Notes under the pieces: generated by a model
Database searches by the model: none
Told to the model about the DNA's origin: nothing
Seen by the model: the letters and a program-made list of their open reading frames with translations, nothing else
Source of the DNA: Agromyces larvae
Lineage (GTDB): Bacteria; Actinomycetota; Actinomycetes; Actinomycetales; Microbacteriaceae
Assembly: GCF_022811705.1 (NCBI RefSeq)
Contig: NZ_CP094528.1
Span: forward strand, 1,488,001-1,552,000
DNA: 64,000 nt
Direction of reading: 5' to 3'
Part shown: positions 1 through 62,233 of the stretch, piece by piece
Position numbering within the stretch: position 1 is the first letter of the stretch
How the letters are laid out: every line of letters starts with the position of its first letter
Program-made: the position numbers and the translations under genes

Positions 1-27
1 CATCTCAGCAGCGTCATTCGCACCCAT
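1..27 (-). CDS. Start of an unidentified early phage gene (partial)
   Basis: Only the first nine codons lie in the window; the gene continues past the left edge. The ATG at 25-27 follows a GGAGGG ribosome binding site by eight bases and starts 12 bases after the stop of the DnaB-like helicase gene, so it is the next cistron of the leftward early phage operon. The nine residues do not allow a product to be named. Confidence 0.5.
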
Positions 28-41
28 CTCGACCACCCTCC

Positions 42-1382
42 TCAGTCCGGCACGACGGGATCCCACCCGCCGAACCACGTCTGCGACACCACCCGGGCGA
101 ACTGGCCCTCCCACAGCAGCGACCGCATCCCGGTGTTCCCGTGCCGGTTCTTCGACACGTGCACGTTCAACCGGTCACCAGGCCGGTCGTCCGCCTCGAG
201 CTGACGCTGCAGCAGCAGCACCACGTCCGCGTCCTGCTCGATCGCACCCGACTCCCGCAGATCCGCGATCGTCGGCGCCCGCCGAACCCGGCCCACCGGT
301 TCCCGGTTCAGCTGCGACAGCACCACGACCGGGCAGTCCAGTTCGCGGGCGAGGATCTTCATCTGCCGCGAGTGCTCGCCGACGACCTCCCACCGTGGCC
401 GGCCGCGCTCCTGCGACGGCACCAGTTGCAGGTAGTCCACGACGACGCCGGCGCACCGCTGATGCTGCTGCCGCACCGCCCGGGCGAACGCGGTGATCTG
501 CGAGATCGTCACCCCCGACCGGTCGTCGATGAACAGCGGCAGATGCTGCACCTCGTGCCGCACACCGGCGACCTTCACCCAGTCCTCGTCGGACAGCTCG
601 TGCCGCGACATCGGCCCCAGGTGCACCTTCCCGCGGAACGCGACCAGCCTGGTGAGCAGCTGCTCGGTCGACATCTCCAGCGACGAAAACGCGACCGGGC
701 CGGTGCCGGCGAGCTCGTGCGCGATCTGCACCCCGACCATCGTCTTCCCCTCGCCCGGACGCGCGCCGACCACGTACAAGCACCCCGGTCGCAGCCCGCC
801 GATGTACTCGTTCACCTCACGCCACGGCGTCGGCACGAACCGCGGCTTCTGCGACAGGTCCTCGACGAAGTCACCGAACTTCGCGCCGATCGGCGCGAAC
901 TCGACGAGCCGTTCCCGGCCCGCCGCATCCACCGCAGCACGGGCCGCTTCGATCGCGGCCGCAGGGTCCTCGTCGTCCGCGAAGCCGAGCTGCGTGATCC
1001 GGGCGCCGACGTCGATCAGGCGCCGCTTCACCGCCTTCGCCCGCACGATCTCCGCGTACCAGCCGGCGTTCGCCGCCGTCGGAACCTCGCTCGTTACCTC
1101 GGACAGCAGGCCCACCCCGCCGGCCCGCTCGAGCTGCCCGGTACGGGTCAGCTCATCGCTGACGGTGACCAGGTCCACCGGGTCGCCACGGTCGGCCAGC
1201 GCGGCGGCCGCAGCGAAGACGAGCTCGTGCCGGGGCACCCAGAAGTCCTCGGCCGATACCAGTGCCAGCACCTCGACCAGGGCCCGCCGCGACAGCAGCA
1301 TCGACCCGAGCACGCTCCGCTCGGCCTGCTCGTCGAACGGGGGCGTCCGCTGCCCGGCCGGGGCATCCGCCGTCATCGTCAC
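42..1382 (-). CDS. Phage DnaB-type replicative helicase
   Basis: Hexameric 5'-3' helicase expected to unwind the phage origin. The N-terminal DnaB domain (about residues 15-130) contains AERSVLGSML. The C-terminal RecA-like ATPase carries Walker A GARPGEGKT (near 204-212), the Walker B-like VVVDYLQLV (near 322), and downstream VVVLSQLNRE and DADVVLLLQR motifs typical of DnaB. At 446 residues it is a usual length. The GTG start at 1382 overlaps the stop of the upstream gene by four bases (GTGA) and has GGAGGA six bases ahead; the ATG at 1376 is the alternative. It follows a putative loader and an initiator gene, giving an initiator-loader-helicase order. It is not the chromosomal dnaB: it lies deep in a phage early operon. 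Confidence 0.9.
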   Translation of the reverse strand: MTMTADAPAGQRTPPFDEQAERSVLGSMLLSRRALVEVLALVSAEDFWVPRHELVFAAAAALADRGDPVDLVTVSDELTRTGQLERAGGVGLLSEVTSEVPTAANAGWYAEIVRAKAVKRRLIDVGARITQLGFADDEDPAAAIEAARAAVDAAGRERLVEFAPIGAKFGDFVEDLSQKPRFVPTPWREVNEYIGGLRPGCLYVVGARPGEGKTMVGVQIAHELAGTGPVAFSSLEMSTEQLLTRLVAFRGKVHLGPMSRHELSDEDWVKVAGVRHEVQHLPLFIDDRSGVTISQITAFARAVRQQHQRCAGVVVDYLQLVPSQERGRPRWEVVGEHSRQMKILARELDCPVVVLSQLNREPVGRVRRAPTIADLRESGAIEQDADVVLLLQRQLEADDRPGDRLNVHVSKNRHGNTGMRSLLWEGQFARVVSQTWFGGWDPVVPD

Positions 1383-1747
1383 GAGCCGTCCTCCGTCGTG
1401 AGCTGCTCGTACCGGACCCGCTGCGCCTCGACCCAGCCCGGGTCGTGCGCGTTGGACATCCACTCGTCGCGGGTCATGCCGAGCACGCCGAGCACCCGTT
1501 CGAACCGGTCGCGCTCGTAGTCGGCCATCCGGGCCTCCTCGGCGAGCGCGGCCCGGTCCCGGACGTCGGCCGGCATCACCTGCCGGGTCTCGTGCCGGTA
1601 GTGCTCGATCACCGCGCTGCGGGCGTCGTCCCTGTGGAGGTCGCCGACGACCTCGTGCCAGGCGTCGACCATCGGCTCGGTGACGATGATGCGGCTATCG
1701 AGCCGCGCGGCGAGCGCGAGCATCGTCGCGGTGTGCTTCTTCAGCAT
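1379..1747 (-). CDS. Small helical phage protein, putative helicase loader
   Basis: A 122-residue, mostly alpha-helical protein. The first 60 residues have the spacing W-x-x-x-x-G-x-L...A...HYRHETRQVMPADV, which resembles the small helicase loader/inhibitor domain of phages such as SPP1 (G39P-like); this is a pattern judgement. The position supports it, since it sits between an initiator gene and a DnaB gene, the usual place of a loader. The ATG at 1747 has GAGGAGG six bases upstream and lies 53 bases inside the end of the initiator gene. It could equally be an unrelated phage protein. Confidence 0.6.
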   Translation of the reverse strand: MLKKHTATMLALAARLDSRIIVTEPMVDAWHEVVGDLHRDDARSAVIEHYRHETRQVMPADVRDRAALAEEARMADYERDRFERVLGVLGMTRDEWMSNAHDPGWVEAQRVRYEQLTTEDGS

Positions 1748-2585
1748 CAGGTTCCTCCTCGTCGTACTTCGCCATGAGGGCGTCCAGCGAGCTCTCGCGG
1801 TCTCGCATCGGCACGACGCGTGGCGGCAGCGGCTCGTCATCCCAGCGGCCTTGGTTCAGCCAGGTCGCCGGATGCGGGATGTAGTTCTTGTCGGGCAGGT
1901 TCGGGTCGGTCGCGTACCGGTGCACGCCGTCGAGGATCGCCCCGACGAGTTCCGGATGACCGCGGGTGAGCGCGGCGAACTTCTTCGCTGCCGCCTGCTT
2001 GCCGACATGCCGGGGGTACTCCGCGTAGAACGCATCGAATGGTGTGACCTTCGGTGCCTCGACCGGTACGTCGAGTGCATCGATTGATGCATCTGTTGAT
2101 GCACCATCGACGTCAGTCGATGAAGAGTTCTTCTTCTGTTCCCCTGTTCCCCTGTTCCCCTGTTCCCCTGTTACAGGCGCGAGGGTGTCGCGAGGGCTCG
2201 CGTAACTTTCGCGAATCACATCGGATTCGTAGTTGAAAGTGCCGTCTGGTCTGGGAAAACGTCCGCGTGCCGGCTTGTCGATTCGCTGCACCGACTTCCA
2301 TCGGTCGATGTAGAGCAAATCCTCACTTTCAACGCTGTATCGCACCACCAAACCGTTGATGCAGAGCGCGGAAATCGCTTCGGACAACCTCGCGAGGGTG
2401 TCGCGAGGGTTCGCGGAGAGGTCGCGAGGAAAGACATCGGCGGCGATCAGAGCGAGGTCGTCTTTGCCCACCCCGTTGTCGTCGACGTACGACTCGAGCC
2501 CCTTCAGCACGAGCCGTGTTTCCCAGTCCAAGGAGGCGATCGTCTTCGACCGCCAGAACTCCGGCTTGATGGTTCGGATGCGCAT
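1695..2585 (-). CDS. Phage replication initiator (O-like), winged-helix N terminus
   Basis: A 296-residue two-domain protein. The N-terminal half (about 1-130) opens with MRIRTIKPEFWRSKTI and the LDWETRLVLKGL stretch common to phage replisome-organiser/initiator proteins with a winged helix for origin binding. A hydrophilic linker (about 135-180) rich in G, E, N, R, T and D is encoded by tandem repeats. The C-terminal part contains FDAFYAEYPRHVGKQAAAKK, a helical segment found at the C termini of phage and plasmid initiators that recruit helicase. The gene precedes the putative loader and DnaB, a lambda O/P-like arrangement. The repeated DNA inside the linker may be the origin itself. The HTH family assignment is from motif recognition only. 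Confidence 0.8.
   Translation of the reverse strand: MRIRTIKPEFWRSKTIASLDWETRLVLKGLESYVDDNGVGKDDLALIAADVFPRDLSANPRDTLARLSEAISALCINGLVVRYSVESEDLLYIDRWKSVQRIDKPARGRFPRPDGTFNYESDVIRESYASPRDTLAPVTGEQGNRGTGEQKKNSSSTDVDGASTDASIDALDVPVEAPKVTPFDAFYAEYPRHVGKQAAAKKFAALTRGHPELVGAILDGVHRYATDPNLPDKNYIPHPATWLNQGRWDDEPLPPRVVPMRDRESSLDALMAKYDEEEPDAEEAHRDDARARRAAR
2137..2172. repeat. Four tandem copies of 8-bp TGTTCCCC inside the initiator gene
   Basis: Perfect TGTTCCCC units at 2137, 2145, 2153 and 2161, plus a partial TGTT. Eight is not a multiple of three, so gain or loss of one unit would shift the frame of the initiator. In the coding strand the repeat spells an 8-residue G-E-Q-G-N-R-G-T period. It is either an iteron array of a phage origin or a slippage-prone tract. 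Confidence 0.85.
2181..2415. repeat. Two near-identical 22-bp direct repeats in the initiator gene
   Basis: The segments 2181-2202 and 2394-2415 differ at one position and share the core GTGTCGCGAGGG. A third shorter GGTCGCGAGG lies at 2420-2429. They encode the recurring P-R-D-T-L-A residues of the protein. Together with the 8-bp array they make this gene unusually iteron-rich. They are candidate initiator binding sites. Confidence 0.7.
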
Positions 2586-2980
2586 CAGATGGTCACCTCT
2601 CCCGTTTTCACCAGCCCGAACACGGCCAGTAGTTCCAGGGCTTCCGAGGATGGAATGCCCTTCGTCGTGCCGTCCGGCAGGAGCATCTGCCACACGCCAG
2701 GGAAGACGAGCACGGGGATCTCGGTCGGGTCGGCGCGGTTCTCCACCGGCACGATCCAGCCGTTCGCGCGTGCCCGTTGCGGGTGTGCGTGGACCCAGCC
2801 GTGGCATCCCGTCGTGCCTGTCCCGCAGAGCAGGATCAGGTTCGGCGGGGTGTGGTCGCCGCTGCCGCGTCGTTGCCGGTGATGCCGGGATCCGACGATG
2901 AAGAACGCGCCGCAGCGTACGCACCGGAACTGGTCGCGGTCGTCGACGAGGCGGGCGACGTGGCCCGAGACGCCGGTCAT
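2585..2980 (-). CDS. HNH endonuclease-like phage protein
   Basis: A 131-residue protein with a zinc-ribbon type HNH core. CVRCG near residue 20 is followed by SRHHRQRRGSGDHTPPNLILLCGTG, with the first His pair, the Asn of PPNL and the CH of GCHGWVH near residue 61. Such small HNH proteins occur in actinophage early regions and may nick DNA during recombination or packaging. The ATG at 2980 overlaps the upstream stop as ATGA. The last third (VLVFPGVWQMLLPDG) has no recognisable fold. The nuclease call is strong from motifs; its role is inferred. Confidence 0.75.
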   Translation of the reverse strand: MTGVSGHVARLVDDRDQFRCVRCGAFFIVGSRHHRQRRGSGDHTPPNLILLCGTGTTGCHGWVHAHPQRARANGWIVPVENRADPTEIPVLVFPGVWQMLLPDGTTKGIPSSEALELLAVFGLVKTGEVTI

Positions 2981-3855
2981 GCTGTACTCGCCTTCGCGAA
3001 CGGAGGAGAGGGACGGTCGAAGTCGTTGTCGTAGACCTCCCACGCCCACGGGTCGGGCCACCCGCGGGCGGCCGCATAGGCGCGCGACCTGTCGGCCGCG
3101 ACGCCGGTCGGCCGGATGAGATTCAGCTCGTCATAGAGCGCGACGATGGCGCGGGCGCGGGCTGCGGTGATCTGGTACGTGCGGTGGCGTCGGCTCTGGC
3201 GTTCGTAGCTGGCGAGCGTGGTGCACAGATTGGTTCCGCAGCCGAGGCGGACGCCGAGTTCTCGCTGCGTCCATCCTGCAGCGATGAGCGCCCGGATGCG
3301 TCGGATGTACGGTCGTGCCGAGACGAGCGTACGGTCGCCGAGCAGGTCGAGGCTGGGGCGGACGGCGAGGATCCGCTCGGCGGTTTCCCGCTTGACGCGC
3401 TTCGGCAGTTCACCTTTCCGTGGTCCGGGATCCTGCCGCCCCCAGAGGATGGTCCGCACTGGGGTCACTCCGAGGCCGGCGAGGCCGGCGATGCGCTTGT
3501 AGCCGAGGCCGTGCTCGCCGAGCATGAGGAGGTGTTCGCGAACTGGCTCGGCGTCGACGAGACCGGTGTCGAACCGCCCGTATGCCTTGAGTCTGTCGCG
3601 ACGGCGCTGCATGGCGGTGTGGTGGTCGGTGCACGGGTCGCATCGGCACTGGTGCTGGATGTAGCAGGTGGAGGACGCCGCATGCTTGTGGTCGGGCGGG
3701 CAGACGATGCGGTGACGGGGGCGGGTGGGGAGTTTGGCGTGGTCGCCGAGTAGGCCGGCGTGCCAGGCGGCTTGGTAGTGGGTGCGGCAGAGACGTCGGG
3801 CGACGGTGCGGTTGTGGCATCCATCATGGGTGCAGGTGCGGGGTCGGCCAGGCAT
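2977..3855 (-). CDS. Actinophage DNA-binding protein with zinc-finger-like N terminus
   Basis: A 292-residue basic protein. The N-terminal part has paired cysteines (CTHDGC, RLCRTHY, then CYIQHQCRCDPC near 70-80) suggesting two small zinc-binding knots. The middle contains VREHLLMLGEHGLGYKRIAGLAGLGV, a helix-turn-helix resembling a transposase or sigma-like HTH, and a second ALIAAGWTQRELGVRLGC helix-turn-helix near 195. Proteins with this layout are frequent in actinophage and actinobacterial mobile DNA but their function is unknown. It starts one base inside the upstream stop (TGATG). A regulatory or DNA-maintenance role is inferred. Confidence 0.65.
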   Translation of the reverse strand: MPGRPRTCTHDGCHNRTVARRLCRTHYQAAWHAGLLGDHAKLPTRPRHRIVCPPDHKHAASSTCYIQHQCRCDPCTDHHTAMQRRRDRLKAYGRFDTGLVDAEPVREHLLMLGEHGLGYKRIAGLAGLGVTPVRTILWGRQDPGPRKGELPKRVKRETAERILAVRPSLDLLGDRTLVSARPYIRRIRALIAAGWTQRELGVRLGCGTNLCTTLASYERQSRRHRTYQITAARARAIVALYDELNLIRPTGVAADRSRAYAAARGWPDPWAWEVYDNDFDRPSPPFAKASTA

Positions 3856-4151
3856 CAGGACAACACCCGCACCCTCTTCGGGACCACCTGGCGGCACGAG
3901 TCCCGCACACTGCGCAGGAACCCGATCGCGGTCTCGACACTGCCCCAGCCGTTCGGAGCGTCGTACTCAGCCTTCAGCGCCCCGAGGTCGTTCGACTCGA
4001 TCATCGTGAGCGCGGCGTCGATCCGCTCGGCCACCTCGTACCGGTCCATGCCGTCCCAGTCGGGCGGGTATGCGTCGAAGTCGCGGAAGAACCGGTGCAT
4101 GTTGGACGTGTAGTTGTGCCAGTCGAGGCCTGCTTGCACGTCGAAGCTCAT
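3855..4151 (-). CDS. Unidentified small early phage protein
   Basis: A 98-residue acidic protein with the stretch GLDWHNYTSNMHRFFRDF near the N terminus and alternating helical segments; no catalytic motif. Residues W-x-x-x-T-x-N-M are shared by small actinophage proteins of unknown role. The ATG at 4151 has a strong GGAGGGAGGGG site and overlaps the stop of the preceding 14-codon reading frame by four bases (ATGA), so translation is probably coupled. Confidence 0.6.
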   Translation of the reverse strand: MSFDVQAGLDWHNYTSNMHRFFRDFDAYPPDWDGMDRYEVAERIDAALTMIESNDLGALKAEYDAPNGWGSVETAIGFLRSVRDSCRQVVPKRVRVLS

Positions 4152-4192
4152 CGCCCCTCCCTCCAACGCGTCGACACGACCTGCAGGCTCAT
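4148..4192 (-). CDS. 14-residue mini-gene linking two phage cistrons
   Basis: A 15-codon frame encoding MSLQVVSTRWREGR. Its ATG (4190-4192) overlaps the stop of the upstream gene as ATGA and is preceded by AAGGAGGGG; its TGA overlaps the next ATG, again as ATGA. It has its own good ribosome binding site and an exact fit between two genes. It may make a micropeptide or serve only to carry ribosomes across the gap. Short length limits confidence. Confidence 0.4.
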   Translation of the reverse strand: MSLQVVSTRWREGR

Positions 4193-4494
4193 GACCCCTC
4201 CTTGGTCGGTTCAGGGGTACGGATAGCGAACGCGATGGCTGCCGCCGTCGCGGTCTCCCCGTACTGAACATCGGTCAGGTCGTCGGGGTGGGCATAGGGC
4301 GACTTGAATGAGTCCGCGATGGTCGCGCACCGCTCCCGTTCCTCGCGTACCGCTTCCTCCACGAGCGGGAGGATCGCGTCGGCCATGCCCCAAATCGTCA
4401 CGATCCACGGTGGTCTGTTGATATCAACGTGCGTGACATCCAACTGGTCGGCAAGCACTCGCGCGATCCGGTCGCGCAGGTCGTCACTCGGCAT
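4189..4494 (-). CDS. Unidentified small early phage protein
   Basis: A 101-residue protein beginning MPSDDLRDRIARVLADQL, followed by a helical LVEEAVREERERCATIADSF segment. Such segments (helix with a single Cys and ending in hydrophilic tail) are common in short actinophage open frames without known function. It overlaps the upstream gene by 11 bases and ends in the ATGA that starts the mini-gene. No domain is recognised. Confidence 0.6.
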   Translation of the reverse strand: MPSDDLRDRIARVLADQLDVTHVDINRPPWIVTIWGMADAILPLVEEAVREERERCATIADSFKSPYAHPDDLTDVQYGETATAAAIAFAIRTPEPTKEGS

Positions 4495-4792
4495 CGTTGG
4501 CCTCCTGTCGGGTGGTACGAGCGGCTTCGAGAGCGACGCGGGCGAGCGGGTCACACACGCGCTTGCAGTCAGGGCACGAGTCGTAATTCCCCGGCTCGTC
4601 CTCACCGCCGTTGCACGTCCACCCCTCCACGTTGAGCGCACGTGCCGCCGCCTCGACCTCGGCGTCGGTCACCGGGCGGGACGCCTGCCACTCGGCACCC
4701 TCCACGAACGTCGTGAGACGACTCTTCTCCAGCGCGTACAGTTCTCCTGCCGCGTGCCGCCGTTCTGCTTCGGCTCGTGCTTCGGTGCTCAT
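4484..4792 (-). CDS. Unidentified phage protein with CxxC pair
   Basis: A 102-residue protein, helical at the N terminus (TEARAEAERRHAAGELYALEK), then VTDAEVEAAARALN, then a cysteine cluster WTCNGGEDEPGNYDSCPDCKRVCD (four Cys) that may bind one zinc ion. The start overlaps the upstream stop at 4792 by one base. Function unknown; part of the early operon. Confidence 0.6.
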   Translation of the reverse strand: MSTEARAEAERRHAAGELYALEKSRLTTFVEGAEWQASRPVTDAEVEAAARALNVEGWTCNGGEDEPGNYDSCPDCKRVCDPLARVALEAARTTRQEANDAE

Positions 4793-4965
4793 CACTCGAC
4801 CTCCTGCTCGAACTCGCCTGTGTGCTGGGTGACGACCACACCGAGCTTGATTTCGGAATGCGCCTCGGCCATGTGCGCGAGGTGCCGCTCGGTCGCCTCG
4901 CGGTACGACCATCCGATGCTTCGGTGCCCGCAGGTTGAGCACTGCGCGTACTTCGCCTGTCCCAT
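4792..4965 (-). CDS. Small zinc-finger-like phage protein
   Basis: A 57-residue protein with CSTCGHRSIGWSYREATERHLAHMAEAH: a CxxC pair followed by two histidines eight residues apart near 28 and 36, the spacing of a C2H2-like finger. It is flanked by one-base overlaps with both neighbours. DNA or protein binding is inferred from the motif alone. Confidence 0.6.
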   Translation of the reverse strand: MGQAKYAQCSTCGHRSIGWSYREATERHLAHMAEAHSEIKLGVVVTQHTGEFEQEVE

Positions 4966-5357
4966 CAGCCCTGCTCCTCTCGCTTCTCGGCGGCACGGGC
5001 GCGGAGCCAGCCGGTCACGCCGCCCTCGTATGGGTGCGGGACGACTGCGAACGCATCCGCCGCCTCTTCGAGCACTCGCGCGTCGTGCTCGGCGAGGATG
5101 CGGGCACGAACCTCGGAATCGGCGGAAAGGATGCCGTAGACCGCGTCGTGGTCGGGCATCGAGCCGCACAGCGACTTGTCGAGAGCTTCGTCGGCCGCCT
5201 CGATCTGCGCGGCGAGAGCTTCGATAACGTCGATCTGATCGTTGCTCTCCGCTGCGTGAATCACAGCAGCCTCCCCGAACTCGGTCAGCCGTTGATTCTC
5301 GGCTTCGAGTTCGCGGATGCGGGCCTCCATCCGCCCAGCGTCGTCAGCCTCACCCAT
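4965..5357 (-). CDS. Coiled-coil early phage protein
   Basis: A 130-residue acidic protein. Residues 8-60 (RMEARIRELEAENQRLTEFGEA...) form a predicted coiled coil; the C-terminal half has GVTGWLRARAAEKREEQ. No enzyme motif. It sits in the run of overlapping small genes and starts eight bases inside the end of the upstream frame. Unknown role. Confidence 0.6.
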   Translation of the reverse strand: MGEADDAGRMEARIRELEAENQRLTEFGEAAVIHAAESNDQIDVIEALAAQIEAADEALDKSLCGSMPDHDAVYGILSADSEVRARILAEHDARVLEEAADAFAVVPHPYEGGVTGWLRARAAEKREEQG

Positions 5358-5541
5358 CAGACCACTCCGCCTCCGGGCGCCCATCCGGTACGGACACCAC
5401 CTCCACCCAGTCGCGCCCGTTGATCAACGTGACCTTCTCCCCCTGAACGATCCGAAGCGTGCCCACCGTCACATCAGCGACCGTCACACCCTCGAACGAC
5501 TCCGTACGAGTCGTCCGCTTCACAACGACACGACTACTCAC
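5350..5541 (-). CDS. Unidentified 63-residue phage protein
   Basis: Short beta-rich protein (VVVKRTTRTESFEGVTVADVTVG...) with a GTG start at 5541 that overlaps the upstream stop as GTGA. No family recognised. Base usage fits the surrounding operon. Confidence 0.5.
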   Translation of the reverse strand: MSSRVVVKRTTRTESFEGVTVADVTVGTLRIVQGEKVTLINGRDWVEVVSVPDGRPEAEWSDG

Positions 5542-5792
5542 CCCGCCGCCTCCCGCCGATACGCCTCAAGCTCATCGACCAACGGCGACACCTCACGCAC
5601 CTTCACCCGCGACCCCACCACGAACGCGGTGAACCCCCGATGCGTCACCGTCACATGCGCGACCGTCGCGAACTCATCCCGTGTGATGATCCGGAACACA
5701 CCTGCATGATCCATGTCGATCGCGAGAAGGAAGCCGGCGTCCTCCACGACCTGGCGGACCTTCGATTCCCACCGCTGCGCTGACGTGCTCAT
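5538..5792 (-). CDS. Unidentified 84-residue phage protein
   Basis: Begins MSTSAQRWESKVRQVVEDAGFLL, then a beta-rich middle (GVFRIITRDEFATVAHVTVTHRG) and a short helix LVDELEAYRREAAG. The start overlaps the upstream stop by four bases (ATGA). No domain recognised. Confidence 0.55.
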   Translation of the reverse strand: MSTSAQRWESKVRQVVEDAGFLLAIDMDHAGVFRIITRDEFATVAHVTVTHRGFTAFVVGSRVKVREVSPLVDELEAYRREAAG

Positions 5793-5971
5793 CGGCCCTC
5801 CACGTGTGCGAGCTCCTGCTCGAGACCGGCCGCGAGGTCACGGGCGCGCTCGAGGTCGCGCAGCGCCGCATCACGCTCGGTCTGGAGGCGTTCGAGTTCG
5901 GCACGTACCGCTTCGGGGCCGGCCGCGATGAGGTTGCCGACGTTGACTTCCCACCACTCCGGCCGGCTCAC
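5789..5971 (-). CDS. Small coiled-coil phage protein
   Basis: A 60-residue protein; after MSRPEWWEVNVGNLIAAG it is one continuous helix with heptad-like Leu/Ala spacing (ELERLQTERDAALRDLERA). Four-base overlaps with both neighbours. Function unknown; oligomerisation is likely. Confidence 0.55.
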   Translation of the reverse strand: MSRPEWWEVNVGNLIAAGPEAVRAELERLQTERDAALRDLERARDLAAGLEQELAHVEGR

Positions 5972-6303
5972 GACGCACCCCCGAGGATCGCGTCAGCGAG
6001 TCGGTCGGTGGACTCCCGGAACCCATACGGCGTCACGTCCTCGCCGTACACCTCAAGGCGGTTCCGCAGGATCGCGAGCTGCGCGTCGATCGTGCGGTGC
6101 AGGGTGACGATCAGCTCGGCGTCGTACGCCGCGTGGTAGAGCCGGGTCAGCGCGATCGCCTCGCGTGTCGAGTCTGCGTCGGCCGGGATGACGCAGTGTC
6201 CCTGCTCGCCGCTGTACTCGGCGATCCACGGTCCGGGTGTAATCTCCGCGCGCAGCGTCTCGAGTTTGAGGATCGCGGCGCGCAGCCGCTCCACCTGGCT
6301 CAT
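5968..6303 (-). CDS. Phage protein of the short GPWxxE type
   Basis: A 111-residue protein with a helical start, then AEITPGPWIAEYSGEQGHCVIPAD and an ALTRLYHAAYDAELIVTLHRTIDAQLAIL helix pair. The TPGPW motif and following Asn/Asp-rich helix occur in a group of small phage proteins of unknown role. Four-base overlaps at both ends show translational coupling. Confidence 0.6.
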   Translation of the reverse strand: MSQVERLRAAILKLETLRAEITPGPWIAEYSGEQGHCVIPADADSTREAIALTRLYHAAYDAELIVTLHRTIDAQLAILRNRLEVYGEDVTPYGFRESTDRLADAILGGAS

Positions 6304-6797
6304 GACGTCACCTCGAGCACGTCAGCCGGCACGAGCGCAGCGAGGTTCCAGACGCACCCGCTGGCGCAGTCCCAGCCGTAGTACCACATCGAGTTCAGGT
6401 CGTAGCGGGCGTCCCACAGGTAGGGCGTGATGAGGATGCCGTCGTATCGGGCGGCGACGCGCGGCCAGTCGATCCAGTGCGATCCGAGATCGGTGCCGGC
6501 GAACGCCGGATGATCGCGGTACTCGGCGGTGAACGCCTTGAGCTCGCCGAGGTTCCCGATCCTGAGGACCTCCGCGTCAGCGGCGATCGTGAACACGGCC
6601 CGGTGCTCCAGCGTCTCGAGGCGGAACTGCTCGTTGCGGCACCATGCGGGCCAGTCGTCCTCGCCGTCGACGCTGAGCCACAGGCCGCGCGGCTTGCCGT
6701 TGCCGAACTCGGTCTGGTCGTACGTCCGCGTCCGGTCGAAGACGAACGGCTCGGCGGTGTAATGCGAGAGGTTGACACCCTCATCAGGCTCCATCAC
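6300..6797 (-). CDS. Unidentified phage protein, possibly ADP-ribosyltransferase-like
   Basis: A 165-residue protein with many aromatic residues: VNLSHYTAEPFVF near the N terminus, KPRGLWLSVDGEDDWPAWC near 40-58, WPRVAARYDGILITPYLWD in the middle and WYYGWDCASGCVWN near the end. The order HYT ... GLWLS ... acidic strand vaguely recalls the His-Tyr/Ser-Glu core of small ART-fold phage effectors, but no invariant glutamate can be assigned with confidence. It overlaps its neighbours by four bases. Could also be a structural or host-takeover protein. Confidence 0.55.
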   Translation of the reverse strand: MMEPDEGVNLSHYTAEPFVFDRTRTYDQTEFGNGKPRGLWLSVDGEDDWPAWCRNEQFRLETLEHRAVFTIAADAEVLRIGNLGELKAFTAEYRDHPAFAGTDLGSHWIDWPRVAARYDGILITPYLWDARYDLNSMWYYGWDCASGCVWNLAALVPADVLEVTS

Positions 6798-7324
6798 GCC
6801 CCACCCCGCCCAGCGAGCTGATACGTCAACTCCACCTGCTTCGACTGCGTCTGCACAGCCGACGTCCGCTGCTCCACCAACCGCGCCATCGACCGGGCGT
6901 AGTCGTACGCGATCTCCGCATCATCCGCCCGCTCCCACTCGACCGCGGTCGCAAGATCAGCGGCCGCCTCACGCTCCGCGACCGTGCCCTGCGCATCCTT
7001 CAACGCGCGCGCACGGGCGAGCTTGTGCTGGCGGATCGCGACCCGACGCGCCCGATCCGCCTCACGCAGGATCCGCACGTTCTGCGCCGCCAGATGCCCG
7101 AGCATCTCCAGGTCCGCGACGATCGAGTCCGGGGTCTTCACCTGCGCGCCGTCCGGCGGGCGAGCCGCGGCGACCCGGCGGGCGACGTACTCCGTCCACC
7201 GCTGGATCGTCTCCGGCGACTCGACCTGCTCGTCGACGACCCGGTCGGGCTGGGCGTCGGCGACCTCGCCGGTCTCCTCATCGACGATGTCGGCGTCGAC
7301 GACCTGCGAAGGCTCATCGGTCAC
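6794..7324 (-). CDS. Coiled-coil phage protein upstream of the RecT module
   Basis: A 176-residue protein with an acidic N terminus (MTDEPSQVVDADIVDEETGEV), then long helices with many Ala, Arg and Glu. It overlaps the recT gene by four bases (its start at 7324 lies in the recT stop). Its constant place beside exonuclease/annealase genes in such phages suggests a partner of the recombination module, but no motif shows what it does. Confidence 0.6.
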   Translation of the reverse strand: MTDEPSQVVDADIVDEETGEVADAQPDRVVDEQVESPETIQRWTEYVARRVAAARPPDGAQVKTPDSIVADLEMLGHLAAQNVRILREADRARRVAIRQHKLARARALKDAQGTVAEREAAADLATAVEWERADDAEIAYDYARSMARLVEQRTSAVQTQSKQVELTYQLAGRGGA

Positions 7325-8142
7325 GGGCGTGCCTCCCCACCCCAGTCGGGCTCCACGTCGTCGAACGGCGGCGCTTCGTCCTCGAACGCCTCCCGCGCCT
7401 TCGCAGCGACCTCCCGCTCGTCACGCCCCGCAGAGGCATCAACCGGGTCGGGAGCGGACGCTTCGGCGATCGGCTCCACGTCGACCACGTCGGCCTTCGG
7501 CTGCACGGATGCCACGGGCTCGACCTGCTTCGGCGGCAGCGCCGCACGCCGAGCCGTCCGCCGCGGCGCCGGCTTCGAAGCATCCGGCCCCGCGACCGGC
7601 TCGTCGAACGCGCCGTCACCGACCTCCTCCGCCGTGTACGGCAGGCCGAGGATCACCTCCGGCGCGATCAGCCGCACCACATCCGCTGTGGCCCGCGCGA
7701 TCAGCATCGCCTCCGGATACCTCGCCCAGTTCTTCTTCCCGGCGAGCTCCGCCTTCTTCGCCCGGTCCATCGTCCAGGTCGACTCGGCGACGTGATCCGA
7801 CCCGACCCGCCGGCCCTTCACGATCGCCCGCTGCGACGTCGACTCCTCGACCCAGATCTCGTGCCCCGCCTTGATCACCAGCGCCCGCAACGTGATCGCC
7901 CGCAGCGCCGGCGTCCCGTCGATGATGTCGATCGACCGGAGCGCCGCCATCAACGGCAACCCGAGCTCAGCGCCCGCGACGATCGCCGCAGCCGTCTCGG
8001 CGACCTTCCCCCGATACGAGGCCGGCACGAACGCGGTCGGCGCGAGCTTCTGCGCGATCTGATACGCGGCATCCATCTCCCGCGCCTTCTCGACCAAGTC
8101 CACGACCGACGCGCGCGGCTCGTACACCTCCACGTCGCTCAT
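7321..8142 (-). CDS. recT: RecT-family single-strand annealing protein
   Basis: A 273-residue annealase. The core (about 15-190) has FVPASYRGKVAETAAAIVAGAELGLPLMAAL, PALRAITLRALVIKAGHEIW and the GKKNWARYPEAMLIARATADVVRLIAPEV segment characteristic of RecT. The C-terminal 80 residues are a disordered, Ala/Pro/Asp-rich tail. It would anneal the single strand produced by the adjacent exonuclease, for phage replication and recombination. Translationally coupled to the exonuclease gene by a four-base overlap. Confidence 0.92.
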   Translation of the reverse strand: MSDVEVYEPRASVVDLVEKAREMDAAYQIAQKLAPTAFVPASYRGKVAETAAAIVAGAELGLPLMAALRSIDIIDGTPALRAITLRALVIKAGHEIWVEESTSQRAIVKGRRVGSDHVAESTWTMDRAKKAELAGKKNWARYPEAMLIARATADVVRLIAPEVILGLPYTAEEVGDGAFDEPVAGPDASKPAPRRTARRAALPPKQVEPVASVQPKADVVDVEPIAEASAPDPVDASAGRDEREVAAKAREAFEDEAPPFDDVEPDWGGEARP

Positions 8143-12476: not shown

Positions 12477-13643
12477 GTGGCTAGGGAACGTATCCGCACG
12501 GAGGAGTACGGGAAGATCCGCCGCATCACGTGGAAGGGGAAACCCGCCGCGGACGCTTACTACCGCGACTCCGCCGGCAACCGGAAACGCATCCTGCGCA
12601 CGGCGGACACCTGGCCCCGCGCAGAGCGCGCATTGAAGGACGCGCTCAAGGATCTGTTCGTGGAATCCGAGTCCGACCTGACCCCGACCTCTACTGTGGC
12701 CGAGCTGATCGATCTGTGGTGGCTCGAGTGGCTGGCGAGCAAGCCGGCCGTGCAAACGGTGGTCACGTACGAGTCCCGCAAGCGCCAGATCGTGAAGGGC
12801 CTCGGCGGCGTGCAGCTGAGAGAGTGCACGGTGCCTCGCGTGGACCGGTTCCTGAAGTCGGTGAAGCAGTCCAAGGCGCATCGCACGATCCTGCGCGCCG
12901 CGTTCGGTCTAGCCGTCCGGCACGGGGCCATGAAGCACAACCCCATGCACAACGTCGCGTCGATGCCCGCCAAGGCCCGGTCGGAACGCCGCGCCCCGCA
13001 GGCGCCCGACGCCGCAGCCGTAGCCGAGATGCTGACGCTGTTCCGTGCATGGGACCGTGGCAAGGACGGGCGGGGCGTGACCCGGAACCACCCGCTCGAG
13101 GACTTCGGGAAGATCGAGTTCGCCACCGGCGCACGCACCAACGAGGTGCTCGCGCTGACCTGGGACGACATCGACCTCGACGCGAAGCAGCCCACCGTCA
13201 CGATCCGCGCGACCCTGATCCAGGACGAACACGGGAAGGTACTGCGCCAGGAGTTCCCGAAGACGGAGAACAGCGAGCGACGGCTGCTGCTCCCCCAGTT
13301 CGCGGTCGAGGTGCTGCTGCGCCGCCGGGTCGAGTCGTACAACGAGAAGGTGTTCCCGAACGGGCGCGGCGGCTGGATCCAGGACGCGAACTTCCGTCGG
13401 CGCTGGTGGCATGAGGCGCTGAAGGGCAGCAAGTACGAGGGGATCGTGCCGAAGGATTTCCGCAAGGCGGTCGCGACCTTGGTTGCGAGGCAGATGGATG
13501 CCAAGACTGCGTCGCGCCAGCTCGGCAACACCGAGACGGTGGCGCTGAAGCACTACATCCAGCGGGCCGCTGAGGGGCCGGATGCGACGGCGCTGCTGGA
13601 GTCGGCGTTCCGTAGCGCCGTGCCCGATGTGGAGACCGACTGA
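12477..13643 (+). CDS. int: Tyrosine-type phage integrase
   Basis: A 388-residue recombinase with an N-terminal arm-binding region, a core-binding SAM-like domain (about 70-165) and a catalytic domain. Residues seen: R220 (GARTNEVLALTW), K262 (PKTENSERR), R329 in VPKDFRKAV and the nucleophile Y360 in ALKHYIQR. The usual His of HxxR is Lys (K326) and the usual His/Trp near LG(H) is Asn (LGNTETV), so the pentad is unusual. GTG start with GGGAGGAG ahead. Ends 86 bases from the 3' end of tRNA-Lys, the likely target. The gene is under a palindromic operator. Confidence 0.9.
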   Translation: MARERIRTEEYGKIRRITWKGKPAADAYYRDSAGNRKRILRTADTWPRAERALKDALKDLFVESESDLTPTSTVAELIDLWWLEWLASKPAVQTVVTYESRKRQIVKGLGGVQLRECTVPRVDRFLKSVKQSKAHRTILRAAFGLAVRHGAMKHNPMHNVASMPAKARSERRAPQAPDAAAVAEMLTLFRAWDRGKDGRGVTRNHPLEDFGKIEFATGARTNEVLALTWDDIDLDAKQPTVTIRATLIQDEHGKVLRQEFPKTENSERRLLLPQFAVEVLLRRRVESYNEKVFPNGRGGWIQDANFRRRWWHEALKGSKYEGIVPKDFRKAVATLVARQMDAKTASRQLGNTETVALKHYIQRAAEGPDATALLESAFRSAVPDVETD

Positions 13644-41294: not shown

Positions 41295-41415
41295 CTTCGA
41301 CAAGCTCAGGGCGCCACCCCCCGCGCCCTGAGCCCGTCGAAGGGGGCCGCCTCAAGCTCAGGGCGCCATCCCCCAGCACCCTGAGCCCGTCGAAGGGGGC
41401 CGCCTTCGACAAGCG
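41295..41415. repeat. REP-like inverted repeats (small cluster)
   Basis: CTTCGACAAGCTCAGGG is paired with CCCTGAGCCCGTCGAAG as a hairpin at 41295-41343; a second, partly truncated pair lies at 41350-41396, and a third fragment near 41403. The same family makes an array near 62 kb. Intergenic between murI and pncB. Confidence 0.85.
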
Positions 41416-44668: not shown

Positions 44669-46290
44669 TCCATCCCCTCGGCCGCCTTGCGCCCGCCTGC
44701 GAGCTCCACGAACCGTTCTTCGAGGCTCTCGCCCCGGCGCACCTCGTCGAGCGTGCCCGAGGCGAGGATGCGGCCGCTCACCACGACGGCGACCGAGTCG
44801 CAGACTCGTTCGATGAGGTCCATGCTGTGACTCGACAGCAGCACGGTGCCGCCGCCGGCGACGTACCGCTCGAGGATCTCGGTGAGGTTCGCCGCCGACA
44901 CCGGGTCGACCGACTCGAACGGTTCGTCCAGCACGAGCAGCCGCGGCGAGTGGATCATCGCGCACGCGAGAGCGATCTTCTTCGTCATGCCGGCGGAGTA
45001 GTCGGCGACGAGGCGGTCGATCGCGTCGTCGAGCGCGAACGCGGCGACCAGGTCGGCGCTGCGCTCCTTGACGGTACGCGGGTCGAGCCCGCGCAGGATG
45101 CCCGAGTAGTAGAGGAGCTGGGCTCCGGTGAGGCGGTCGAACAGGCGCAGCCGGTCGGGCAGCACGCCCGTGTTGCGCTTGGCGTGCTTCGGGTCGGCCC
45201 ATGCATCGATGCCGTGGATGCGCACGGTTCCCGCGTCGGGACGCAGCAGGCCGGTGACCATCGACAGGGTCGTGGTCTTGCCGGCGCCGTTCGGCCCGAC
45301 GATGCCGAAGAAGGAGCCGACGCGCACGTCGAGCGACACCCGGTCGACCGCCGTGTTCGCCCCGAAACGCTTCTCGAGCCCGTCGATCTCGAGCACGGTC
45401 GCGGCGTCGGCCGGCGGCGCCACGCGCGCCGGTCGCAGGGTGCGCGCCTCGTTCGGCTTCGGGCGCACCGGCAGCGGCACGACCTCGGTCACGCGGGGCG
45501 ATTCATCGGATGCCTCGGACAGTGCGGAGACCTCGGATGCCTCGACCTCTGGCTCCTCGACGACGGACTCCTCGACCACCGGCGCTTCGACGACCGGCGC
45601 CGCTTCAACCGGCCCGTCCTCGACCAGCGCCACTTCGAGCGGTACTTCCTCGACCGGCGCTTCCTCGACCGGCGCTTCCTCGACCGGCGCTTCCTCGACC
45701 GGCGCTTCCTCGACCGGCGCCTCCTCGACCGGCGCCTCCTCGACCGACGCTTCCTCGACCGGCGCCTCCGCGATCTCCGTCTCGGGCTCCGCGAGCTTCG
45801 CGTCCGCGATCTCGGCGTCCGCGATGGCGATCTGCGCCGCTGCGAGCTCGGCAGCCGTCCGCCGTTGCTTCTTCTCGACGGGTTCCGCCTCGCTCCGGCG
45901 CGGCGGCTCGAGCTCGGTGGTCTCGGTCGTGATCGACGCGGCAATGCGCTCGCGCTGCTTCGCTGCCGTCGCGTTGCTGCGGGTGCGGCCGCCCGCCGTC
46001 GTCGCCGAACCGGCGGCCTTCTTGTTCGCCGTCGTGCGGGAGCTCTTCGCAGCTGCGGATCTGGCCGCCGTCGACTTGGCCGACGCCGCCTTCGATGCGT
46101 TCGTGCGCTTGGATGCGGTCGGCGCGGCCGACGAGGCATCCGTCTCGCTCTTCGGTCGGCGCGGACGCGGCGTGCGCGCGGCACCCGAGGTCGGGCGGGC
46201 GGGACGAGTCGACGAAGTCCCCGGATCGGCTGTCTCCCCCGAGCCGGTGGCTTCTGGCTCGTCCTTGGGTGAGCGCGAAACTGAAGTCAC
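44644..46290 (-). CDS. ABC ATPase with repeat-rich N-terminal extension
   Basis: A 548-residue protein. The last 245 residues are an ABC ATPase: IDGLEKRFGANTAVDRVSL, Walker A VGPNGAGKTTTLSMV, signature YSAGMTKKIALACAM and LLVLDEPFESVDPVSAAN. The first 300 residues are extra: a histone-H1-like Ala/Lys/Thr/Ser part (about 35-95; ASKAASAKSTAARSAAAKSS), then Ala/Glu-rich stretches and at 176-215 eight tandem VEEAP-type units. TACGTT six bases before the GTG start. The extension could tether the exporter to another surface or complex; it is not part of known ABC ATPases. Confidence 0.9.
   Translation of the reverse strand: MTSVSRSPKDEPEATGSGETADPGTSSTRPARPTSGAARTPRPRRPKSETDASSAAPTASKRTNASKAASAKSTAARSAAAKSSRTTANKKAAGSATTAGGRTRSNATAAKQRERIAASITTETTELEPPRRSEAEPVEKKQRRTAAELAAAQIAIADAEIADAKLAEPETEIAEAPVEEASVEEAPVEEAPVEEAPVEEAPVEEAPVEEAPVEEVPLEVALVEDGPVEAAPVVEAPVVEESVVEEPEVEASEVSALSEASDESPRVTEVVPLPVRPKPNEARTLRPARVAPPADAATVLEIDGLEKRFGANTAVDRVSLDVRVGSFFGIVGPNGAGKTTTLSMVTGLLRPDAGTVRIHGIDAWADPKHAKRNTGVLPDRLRLFDRLTGAQLLYYSGILRGLDPRTVKERSADLVAAFALDDAIDRLVADYSAGMTKKIALACAMIHSPRLLVLDEPFESVDPVSAANLTEILERYVAGGGTVLLSSHSMDLIERVCDSVAVVVSGRILASGTLDEVRRGESLEERFVELAGGRKAAEGMEWLHSFSD
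45646..45765. repeat. 15-bp tandem repeat, eight copies, in frame
   Basis: Eight units of TTCCTCGACCGGCGC (two with T to C at position 1, one G to A). On the minus strand they read VEEAP repeatedly inside the N-terminal extension of the ABC ATPase. Copy-number change keeps the frame. Confidence 0.92.
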
Positions 46291-56536: not shown

Positions 56537-57319
56537 ATGAGCGACCCCGACGCCGACGCCGCCGACTCCCCCGTACCGACGACCCGCTCGGTGTGGGACT
56601 ACGTGAAGCCCACCGCGGCACCGACGTTGAGCACGCCGAGCGTGGCCTCGGTCGCCTCCGCCGAGCCGGCCGTGCCCGCAGCCGACTCCGCTGAGCCGGC
56701 CGCCTCGGCCTCCGCCTCGGCCTCCGCTCAGACCTTCGCCGCCGCCGATCCGGCGAAGATCGTCGAGGATGCCACGGCGCGCGCCGTGGCATCCGTACCC
56801 GCCAACCTGCAGCAGACGGTCTCGACCGCGTTCGAAGCGCTGCCGGCCGCCGTGCAGGATCGCGCCGCCGCCGCAGCGACGAGCGCCGCCGCCACGGCAA
56901 GCGCGTACGCCGAACAGGCGGTCGCGAACGTGCAGCGCACCGTCGCGAACGCGCAGCGCGCCACCGCCGCACCGCTACCGACCCCGCCGACCCTCCCCGA
57001 GGTCCCTCGGTACGGCGAGTACGCCGCCACCCGCCCCGGCAGGGGCCCCGCGCCTACCGGCACCGCCACCACCGCCAACCCTGGCACTGGCGCGGCCATC
57101 GCCTCGATCGTGCTCGCCGTCCTCGGCGGGGTGTTCGCGCTGATCCCGATCCTCAGCTACGTCGCCGTCGCGGGCGCGATCTTCGGCATCACCCTCGGAA
57201 ACCGGGCGAAGCGCGCCGGCTCCGCAGCGGGTACGGCCGGCGTGGCGCTGTCAGTGCTGACGCTCATCTTCAGCGTCATCACGTCCATTGCGTACACCGC
57301 GGTTTTCGCGTCGATGTAG
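56537..57319 (+). CDS. DUF4190-like membrane protein
   Basis: A 260-residue protein: 180 residues of Ala/Ser/Thr/Pro-rich low complexity, some helical (VVEDATARAVASVPANLQQT), followed by GTGAAIASIVLAVLGGVFALIPILSYVAVAGAIFGITLGNRAKR and a last helix, the DUF4190 pair of membrane segments. Trapped between the two copies of the duplicated sequence, it could be lost by recombination between them. Function unknown. Confidence 0.75.
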   Translation: MSDPDADAADSPVPTTRSVWDYVKPTAAPTLSTPSVASVASAEPAVPAADSAEPAASASASASAQTFAAADPAKIVEDATARAVASVPANLQQTVSTAFEALPAAVQDRAAAAATSAAATASAYAEQAVANVQRTVANAQRATAAPLPTPPTLPEVPRYGEYAATRPGRGPAPTGTATTANPGTGAAIASIVLAVLGGVFALIPILSYVAVAGAIFGITLGNRAKRAGSAAGTAGVALSVLTLIFSVITSIAYTAVFASM

Positions 57320-57412
57320 CGATCCAGCGATCAAAGCGATCCAACGACCAAGCGATCCAACGACCAAGCGATCCAGCGATCCAGCGACCAAGCGATCCAG
57401 CGCTGAAGCGAC
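57319..57412. repeat. Short tandem repeat of AGCGATCC and AACGACCA units
   Basis: About twelve 8-base units, mixing GCGATCCA and GCGACCAA-like sequence, right after the DUF4190-like gene. Likely unstable by slippage. Confidence 0.8.
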
Positions 57413-57430
57413 CTCGGCACCGCGCGCGCC

Positions 57431-61829: not shown

Positions 61830-62216
61830 CGGAAGCCCGTCGAAGCCCGCTGAGCCCGTCGAAGCCCGTCGAAGCCCGCTGAGCCTGTCGAAGCGGAGCA
61901 GCCCCCTTCGACAAGCTCAGGGAGCATGAGCCGAAGCCCGCTGAGCCCGTCGAAGCGGACCAACCCCTTCGACAAGCTCAGGGAGCCGAGCCCGTCGAAG
62001 CCCGCTGAGCCCGTCGAAGCGGACCAGCCCCCTTCGACAAGCTCAGGGAGCATGAGCCGAAGCCCGCTGAGCCCGTCGAAGCGGACCAGCCCCCTTCGAC
62101 AAGCTCAGGGAGCATGAGCCGAAGCCCGCTGAGCCCGTCGAAGCGGACCAGCCCCCTTCGACAAGCTCAGGGAGCATGAGCCGAAGCCGACCCAGCCCCC
62201 TTCGACAAGCTCAGGG
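61830..62216. repeat. REP-like array with 62-bp period
   Basis: CTTCGACAAGCTCAGGG occurs at 61906, 61967, 62032, 62094, 62156 and 62200. Between copies lie GCTGAGCCCGTCGAAG elements of opposite orientation, so each unit can fold as a hairpin. It fills most of the 475-base gap (61759-62233) before the protease gene. Confidence 0.95.
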
Positions 62217-62233
62217 GGCCGAGCCGTCGGTGT

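Follow-up and report, generated by a model that had tools for sequence, protein, structure and literature searches.

The 64,000-nucleotide stretch of Agromyces larvae DNA analysed here (contig NZ_CP094528.1, positions 1,488,001–1,552,000; referred to as the window) harbours near its left end, on the minus strand, a gene for a replication initiator (1695–2585), coding for a protein of about 296 amino acids with the start MRIRTIKPEFW. The protein matches the phage family phrog_2149, replication initiation protein, over its whole length (E 3.9e-77; residues 2–295 on profile positions 1–286 of 289); profile searches yielded no Pfam or NCBIfam match. Downstream of the initiator gene, with one small gene of unknown function in between, lies the gene for a DnaB-like replicative helicase of the prophage (42–1376, minus strand; PF03796, 4.7e-68; PF00772, 8.7e-28; phrog_19, 1.3e-92). 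Among the five genes spanning 42 to 3855, the profile searches recovered this DnaB-like helicase and no match to P. RecT-like, exonuclease and integrase genes were identified to the right of the initiator gene (integrase gene at 12477–13643), while the 20 kb to the left of the window contain genes for tail, major head, portal and terminase proteins; since phage genes are located on both sides, the region represents an integrated phage. The left flank additionally encodes a single protein matching both ParB-like and DNA methyltransferase phage families (L422:15919–17565).

An AlphaFold2 model divides the initiator into three parts, all encoded on the minus strand. The underlying alignment comprised the window protein and 70 of 88 representatives, the 18 left out being mostly overlong, wrong-frame or truncated readings. 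Rows such as L073, L118 and L123 lack the N-terminal domain, having been read in a different frame of the array (see below), a shortcoming that affects the model as well as the phrog_2149 count (63 of 71 aligned sequences, some rows being in the wrong frame of the array). The N-terminal part (2289–2585) codes for residues 1–100, modelled with high confidence as helices and a beta hairpin. This domain is probably a winged helix and presumed to bind the boxes described below. Its best Foldseek matches in the PDB are mostly winged-helix proteins, although weak and none with an E-value of 0.001 or better; a sequence search of the PDB with the alignment of the window protein and its array-locus relatives returned no match at E up to 1. 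The linker-coding part (2049–2288; residues ~101–180) corresponds to a poorly ordered region (residues ~121–178; pLDDT block means of 49–73 over 121–180). The C-terminal domain encoded by 1698–2048 is helical in the model (residues 181–297) and presumed to recruit the helicase; relatives from Enterobacteriaceae possess a DnaT domain in their C-terminal half.

Repeats within the initiator gene

A preliminary description of the region had claimed four perfect repeat units in this gene. Four perfect GGGGAACA units indeed follow one another head to tail at 2137–2168 on the minus strand (TGTTCCCC on the forward strand), within the linker-coding part. Five TGTTCCCC 8-mers occur in the window as compared to 0.85 expected, a count equalled in none of 100 shuffles, and across the 4.0-Mb genome 2137–2168 is the only place with two or more consecutive units. 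For this array, a role in strand opening and capture is proposed.

Two clusters of CGCG boxes were detected in addition, both on the minus strand and both with a spacing of 11-10-11 bp: cluster A at 2178–2213 (boxes at 2178, 2189, 2199 and 2210) and cluster B at 2391–2426 (boxes at 2391, 2402, 2412 and 2423). In the 5' to 3' direction of the coding strand, the order is cluster B, about 180 bp free of boxes, cluster A, the junction CCTGTAACA (2169–2177, minus strand) between the last box and the array, and the four GGGGAACA units. In relatives, the junction often reads CCTGGAACA (flanks of 115 distinct arrays), and the last box begins 13 bp ahead of the array in 13 of 14 loci displayed. Cluster A is encoded in the linker, cluster B in the part coding for the N-terminal domain (residues ~54–66 of the AlphaFold2 model). 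The pair of direct repeats with one mismatch, originally given as 22 bp, extends over 25 bp (2178–2202 and 2391–2415) and is part of a repeat family of 37 nt (84%); its copies belong to clusters A and B, respectively. The earlier assignment of the repeats to the linker-coding part therefore holds for the array and the copy at 2178, but the copy at 2391 encodes part of the DNA-binding domain. Likewise, the array lies between the two halves of the modelled protein (residues ~1–100 and 181–297), as had been proposed, whereas cluster B is situated inside the N-terminal part. Overlooked in that description were the 10–11 bp boxes, the nature of the 22-bp pair as two box clusters, and the generality of the array.

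The GC content amounts to 0.53–0.59 in 120-bp windows of 1981–2400 as compared to 0.60–0.78 elsewhere in 1–8000; the array itself is G-rich and the dip in stability shallow. In relatives, duplex stability has its lowest mean just past the array (corresponding to 2107–2136, minus strand): positions +20 to +35, counted from the beginning of the array, have −1.46 to −1.47 kcal/mol per bp, a shallow minimum given −1.48 also at −145 (89 loci). The TGATGCATC-type repeats that had been noted near 2090 are present (exact at 2085–2093, with one mismatch at 2097–2105) and form a 12-bp, codon-sized repeat. Allowing one mismatch, 18 TGATGCATC sites occur in the window versus 10.2 expected, and 18 were reached in 3 of 100 shuffles. 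Their suggested role as part of an origin was not retained: they look incidental, since their period is codon-sized and since, in related loci, the periodicity found on this side of the array is essentially restricted to codon-sized steps. Elsewhere in the window, an 8-bp array of about 10 AGCGATCC-like units (57318–57413), several repeat copies built on TTCGACAAGCTCAGGG and its reverse complement (41301–41405 and 61832–62226), and a 15-bp repeat of about 13 copies with codon-sized period (45578–45773) were observed.

Boxes and array in related phages

The preliminary description had advised comparing the repeats in homologous genes of related phages; the same layout of boxes and tract recurs in many divergent phages. 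Periodicity was analysed in 89 non-redundant loci, derived from 134 arrays with sufficient flanking sequence. Strong peaks at lags 9, 11 and 21–22 appear in the 100 bp ahead of the array, and peaks only at multiples of 3 in the 100 bp behind it. Some 6-mer is present at least three times ahead of the array in 70 of the 89 loci, with cores that vary (CGCGAG, CGCCGA, CGGCGC, GCGGAA and others). In these 70 loci, the density of the locus' own core reaches 28–30 per kb in cluster B (−280 to −200), compared to a background of 1.4 per kb. The own core was found in cluster B of 35 out of 37 CGCGA-class loci and 21 out of 33 others. Cluster B of the non-CGCGA loci contains 13.1 own cores per kb, compared to 2.8 when the cores are taken from other loci. 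For the CGCGA class, such borrowed cores are also frequent (13.0 versus 37.8 per kb for own cores), probably due to near-variant cores. Box spacing in 44 related loci is mostly 10–11 bp in either cluster, and the distance from A to B is a multiple of 3 in 24 of these loci and not in 20, the latter number being inflated by missed boxes. Boxes that differ among phages and agree within a gene would be the mark expected of a sequence-specific binding protein.

The exact 24-mer (GGGGAACA)3 was detected in at least 120 viral stretches, a permuted 24-mer serving as control in two. Of the 120 viral stretches listed, 115 have the array 100–900 nt downstream of the N-terminal initiator domain and on the same strand; this placement also applies to 28 of the 90 genome-collection stretches and, in the case of (GGGAACA)4, to 26 of 56 viral stretches. 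All placement counts were made with a profile of the N-terminal domain, as a full-length alignment profile matches the array itself. Judged by their titles, which cover 80 of the 90 genome stretches, 25 of the 28 initiator-associated ones could be read, all 25 as Actinobacteria. The remaining 62 stretches lie outside initiators, including those of the microsatellite-rich Candidatus Viridilinea and Hormoscilla. Arrays of the GGGGAACA type are scattered outside initiators in genomes of Candidatus Viridilinea, Hormoscilla and Saprospiraceae (L187–L276). In a sample of the class, the 24-mer occurs in 2 of 394 genomes, one of which is the window's own, and a reversed control in none of the 394.

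In total, 473 phage records encode relatives of the window initiator. Searching with the window protein, and thus without selection for the array, yielded 62 loci, 53 of them distinct at the array; the best run comprises three exact units in 21 of these, two in 17, four in 7, one in 6 and none in 2 (one a truncated locus). An alignment restricted to the N-terminal domain (21 sequences) was used as query to obtain the best 80 of 578 relatives, of which 71 are non-redundant; the 21 sequences were drawn from array-bearing loci, so this set leans to their kin. A loose pattern was matched by 39 of these best 80 of 578, some poor matches included. At least four GGA within 40 nt are present on the coding strand of the linker in 64 of the 71 array-blind loci (from the best 80 of 578 relatives) and on the opposite strand in 1 of 71; the same threshold is passed by 8 of 71 N-terminal parts and 4 of 70 downstream regions. 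A clear GGA tract is absent in 7 of the 71 loci. If codons are redrawn with the protein kept fixed, 35.1 of 70 loci are expected past the threshold, as compared to 63 of 70 observed. Among 28 loci without an 8-mer array, selected by hand and viewed, the tract often consists of GGANN pentamers or 7-mers. The spacing from GGA to GGA peaks at 5 (136) and 8 (122), and the unit spacings of 8, 7 and 5 are out of reading frame.

Substitutions within the units are unevenly distributed. The 287 units of 79 loci carry 71 substitutions. Unit position 2 accounts for 49 of these and positions 1 and 6–8 together for 22, with none at positions 3–5; the loci are related, and the restriction is somewhat overstated since units were counted only with at most one mismatch. 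The commonest substitution is G to A at position 2 (49 of 71), and position-2 changes fall into all three codon phases (26, 8 and 15). In all, 60 changes are nonsynonymous and 11 synonymous, with 5323 versus 1565 opportunities, respectively (rate ratio 1.6). Codon usage, in which the restriction is likewise somewhat overstated by the mismatch limit, is uniform in the array: threonine is encoded by ACA in 77 of 77 instances versus 31 of 313 in the N-terminal part, and arginine by AGG or AGA in 89 of 89 versus 128 of 756 (78 loci). As the substitutions ignore the reading frame, selection acts on the nucleic acid, the level at which the comparison shows the array to be constrained.

The array also coincides with breaks in similarity between phages. 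Among 105 loci (5460 pairs), 10 pairs are alike only downstream and 13 only upstream of the array, next to 36 alike on both sides; these 23 one-sided pairs are not independent of each other. No such break is seen in any pair at control joints placed 250 bp away from the array in each direction. L063 and L108 share 141 identical bases after the array and only 14 before it, and further pairs with a break at the array are L104/L132 and L016/L054. Phages thus appear to swap modules of boxes and binding domain at the array.

A putative origin and its alternatives

The proposal that an origin lies within the initiator gene, as in lambda, gains support from the comparison, namely from the phrog_2149 assignment, the helically spaced boxes, the strand-asymmetric tract and the recurrence in divergent phages. 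The stretch 2137–2426 is accordingly a candidate for the lytic replication origin of the prophage inside its own initiator gene, where boxes would be bound, the GGA tract opened and one strand held for helicase loading; judged from sequence, we put the probability of this reading at roughly 0.7. The winged-helix-like N-terminal half of the initiator would bind both CGCG clusters, whose boxes, spaced by one helical turn, may all lie on one face of the helix, with the DNA being wrapped or looped. The resulting strain would act on the adjacent tract, i.e. the GGGGAACA coding strand and the slightly less stable stretch, and cause the strands to open. One strand of the GGA tract may then be kept single-stranded by the initiator and/or its helicase partner during loading of the DnaB-like helicase. 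Opening and strand capture are assigned to the GGA tract because of the closest worked-out precedent, a plasmid origin with a winged-helix Rep protein (PMC4081077). Against the model stand the tract not being A+T-rich and the shallowness of the drop in stability behind the array. Further points against it are the 35.1 of 70 loci expected past the GGA threshold from the protein alone, the 7 of 71 array-blind loci devoid of a clear tract, the less fitting Tyrion gp43 and ydaU, and the missing kinship to lambda O (see below).

The main rival retains the same origin and has the array act via transcription: the purine-rich nascent RNA would re-pair with the C/T-rich template, forming an R-loop that opens the origin and may supply primers. 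Every array placed beside the initiator domain has its tract on the coding strand, C-poor and with clustered G, and the origin of lambda is activated by, and requires, transcription (PMC5043065). The activating promoter of lambda may, however, lie downstream, so that the origin itself need not be transcribed (PMC5043065), and a plain R-loop would not require the invariant core at unit positions 3–5. The direction of the gene never varies independently of that from boxes to tract, so that the comparison cannot separate the R-loop from strand capture; overall, we regard the R-loop as unlikely. Far less probable still is that the array acts as a G-quadruplex, with four GGGG runs and four-base loops on the displaced strand. 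The window array does fit the motif, and when the quadruplex term is switched on, the folding energy of its RNA amounts to −31.1 as compared to −6.5 kcal/mol; yet a control with permuted loops folds equally well (−29.7) although viral contigs hardly contain it (2 stretches), and the run is broken by the most frequent change within the units, G to A at position 2. With four runs of at least three G kept in just 51 of 132 distinct relatives, the quadruplex was rejected as a conserved feature.

Readings that deny the array or the boxes a role in replication are very unlikely as well. A microsatellite born by slippage, or a peptide linker under selection at the protein level, without any role of the DNA, would agree with the similar GGGGAACA arrays scattered in some bacterial genomes, where 62 of 90 stretches lie outside initiators, and with linker amino acids that by themselves favour GGA (the 35.1 of 70 loci expected). 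The viral arrays are nevertheless almost confined to one gene and strand (115 of the 120 listed), unit spacings of 8, 7 and 5 break the frame, nonsynonymous changes are no rarer than synonymous ones, and the codons of the array are fixed. On these data of substitution, codons, placement and spacing, both a mere microsatellite and a mere peptide linker were rejected. The boxes might, with a similarly small probability, serve a winged-helix regulator as operators or as a partition site, with the origin located elsewhere, as the weak fold matches include the regulators Fur and CodY as well as the centromere-binding TubR and AspA. The family is, however, annotated as replication initiator and has a DnaB-like gene nearby; moreover, the boxes are located within the gene rather than ahead of it, and are followed by a distinct tract, as in lambda.

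Relation to known origins

The layout resembles that of lambda ori in gene O (NC_001416), where repeated initiator sites in linker-coding DNA are likewise followed by a purine-rich coding strand at the place where the strands open. Gene O contains four iterons at nt 349–433, and its most purine-rich 40 nt start where iteron 4 ends, at about nt 431. Binding of O opens a neighbouring A+T-rich region of 40 bp, the opened element is contacted by O and P, and single-strand binding activity there is reported for O, P and DnaB (PMC5043065). In contrast to the one-turn boxes of the window, the lambda iterons measure 18–19 bp, the lambda tract is A-rich, and a second box cluster is present only in the prophage. 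Lambda furthermore employs P and the host DnaB; the prophage, by contrast, brings a DnaB-like gene of its own, and no gene for P was recognized next to its initiator. Kinship to lambda O was not found: hhalign of the N-terminal-domain alignment against lambda O gave a probability of 1%, and the Phage O family (PF04492/TIGR01610) is matched by lambda O and not by the window protein. At oriV of RK2, the winged-helix Rep protein TrfA binds the iterons and also, within the opening element, one of the two single strands of the repeats, every one of which is needed (Wegrzyn et al. 2014, PMC4081077). Shared with the window are phased iterons next to short direct repeats in the opening element; the differences are that RK2 is a plasmid with A+T-rich 13-mer repeats and that strand binding has been shown for TrfA and is inferred here (PMC4081077).

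Gp63 of mycobacteriophage Brujita (NC_011291) is a homologous initiator with CGCGA boxes and a GGGGAACA array, the latter having three exact units compared to four here; no origin is annotated in the stretch viewed. The initiator of a Klebsiella plasmid-prophage (NZ_CP030728) belongs to the same N-terminal family (28.5% over 41% of the window protein) and has CTCAGTGAG-type repeats followed by a GGA tract, but differs in its DnaT domain in the C-terminal half, its GGGAA-type units and its overlap with a gene annotated as replication protein P. This relative from Enterobacteriaceae lies between lambda and the window family. A short repeated motif read as single strand beside boxes bound as double strand is also known from the DnaA-trio of bacterial oriC, which proceeds in trinucleotide steps and is read by DnaA; here GGA recurs at steps of 5–8 nt.

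Other candidates fit less closely or were set aside. Tyrion gp43 contains (GGATCAG)3 with equal GGA maxima on both strands. For extrachromosomal mycobacteriophages of the Miko type, the repA region suffices for replication and the origin is thought to lie in or just before repA; that study reports the region to be devoid of repeated motifs (Wetzel et al. 2020, PMC7157519). Miko RepA is likewise a phage initiator, although a different protein, and as inspection of Miko repA by eye revealed no comparable array, it was dismissed as an experimentally tested member of the family. YdaU of the Rac prophage in E. coli K-12, a prophage with the active origin oriJ (PMC3945230), was rejected as a relative, its N-terminal domain being DUF1376 and hhalign covering only 11 columns at a probability of 0.3%. 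The ydaU gene has no GGA tract; its linker (L420:3500–3640) contains GTTCAAAC-type repeats followed by an A-rich stretch, a lead only. A protein of the Rhodococcus plasmid pRA1 (tblastn, query residues 37–257) was also set aside, its likeness residing by eye in the C-terminal half and a GGA tract being absent. This HTH protein of the 9.4-kb plasmid (L423:1–1335) differs from the window initiator in its N-terminal domain.

An iteron origin inside an initiator gene is of a known kind. In the literature searched (titles and the beginnings of abstracts of the papers listed, with most subscription papers outside its range), no description of a strand-asymmetric GGA-repeat element common to phages with different boxes was found, the array strings appeared only in papers of unrelated title, and no experiments on any family member were encountered. 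More tentatively, and with the odds somewhat against it, the GGA tract in its forms as 8-mer GGGGAACA, 7-mer GGGAACA and 5-mer GGANN could function quite generally, and independently of the host, as an origin element in temperate phages of hosts from Actinobacteria to Enterobacteriaceae. It would be read as single-stranded nucleic acid by a conserved helicase-loading part, with the boxes changing from phage to phage, and owing to its conservation would serve as the joint at which the module of binding domain and boxes is swapped against C-terminal modules.

If these readings are true, the sequence by itself would suffice to locate lytic origins in a very large set of temperate phages (the 473 records) for which no origin description was found in the literature searched. 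The opening element would be marked by strand asymmetry and GGA repeats instead of A+T content, and variable boxes beside a near-invariant tract would mean that box recognition and strand capture are separable. This would also suggest how initiator genes may shuffle among phages while keeping their origin.
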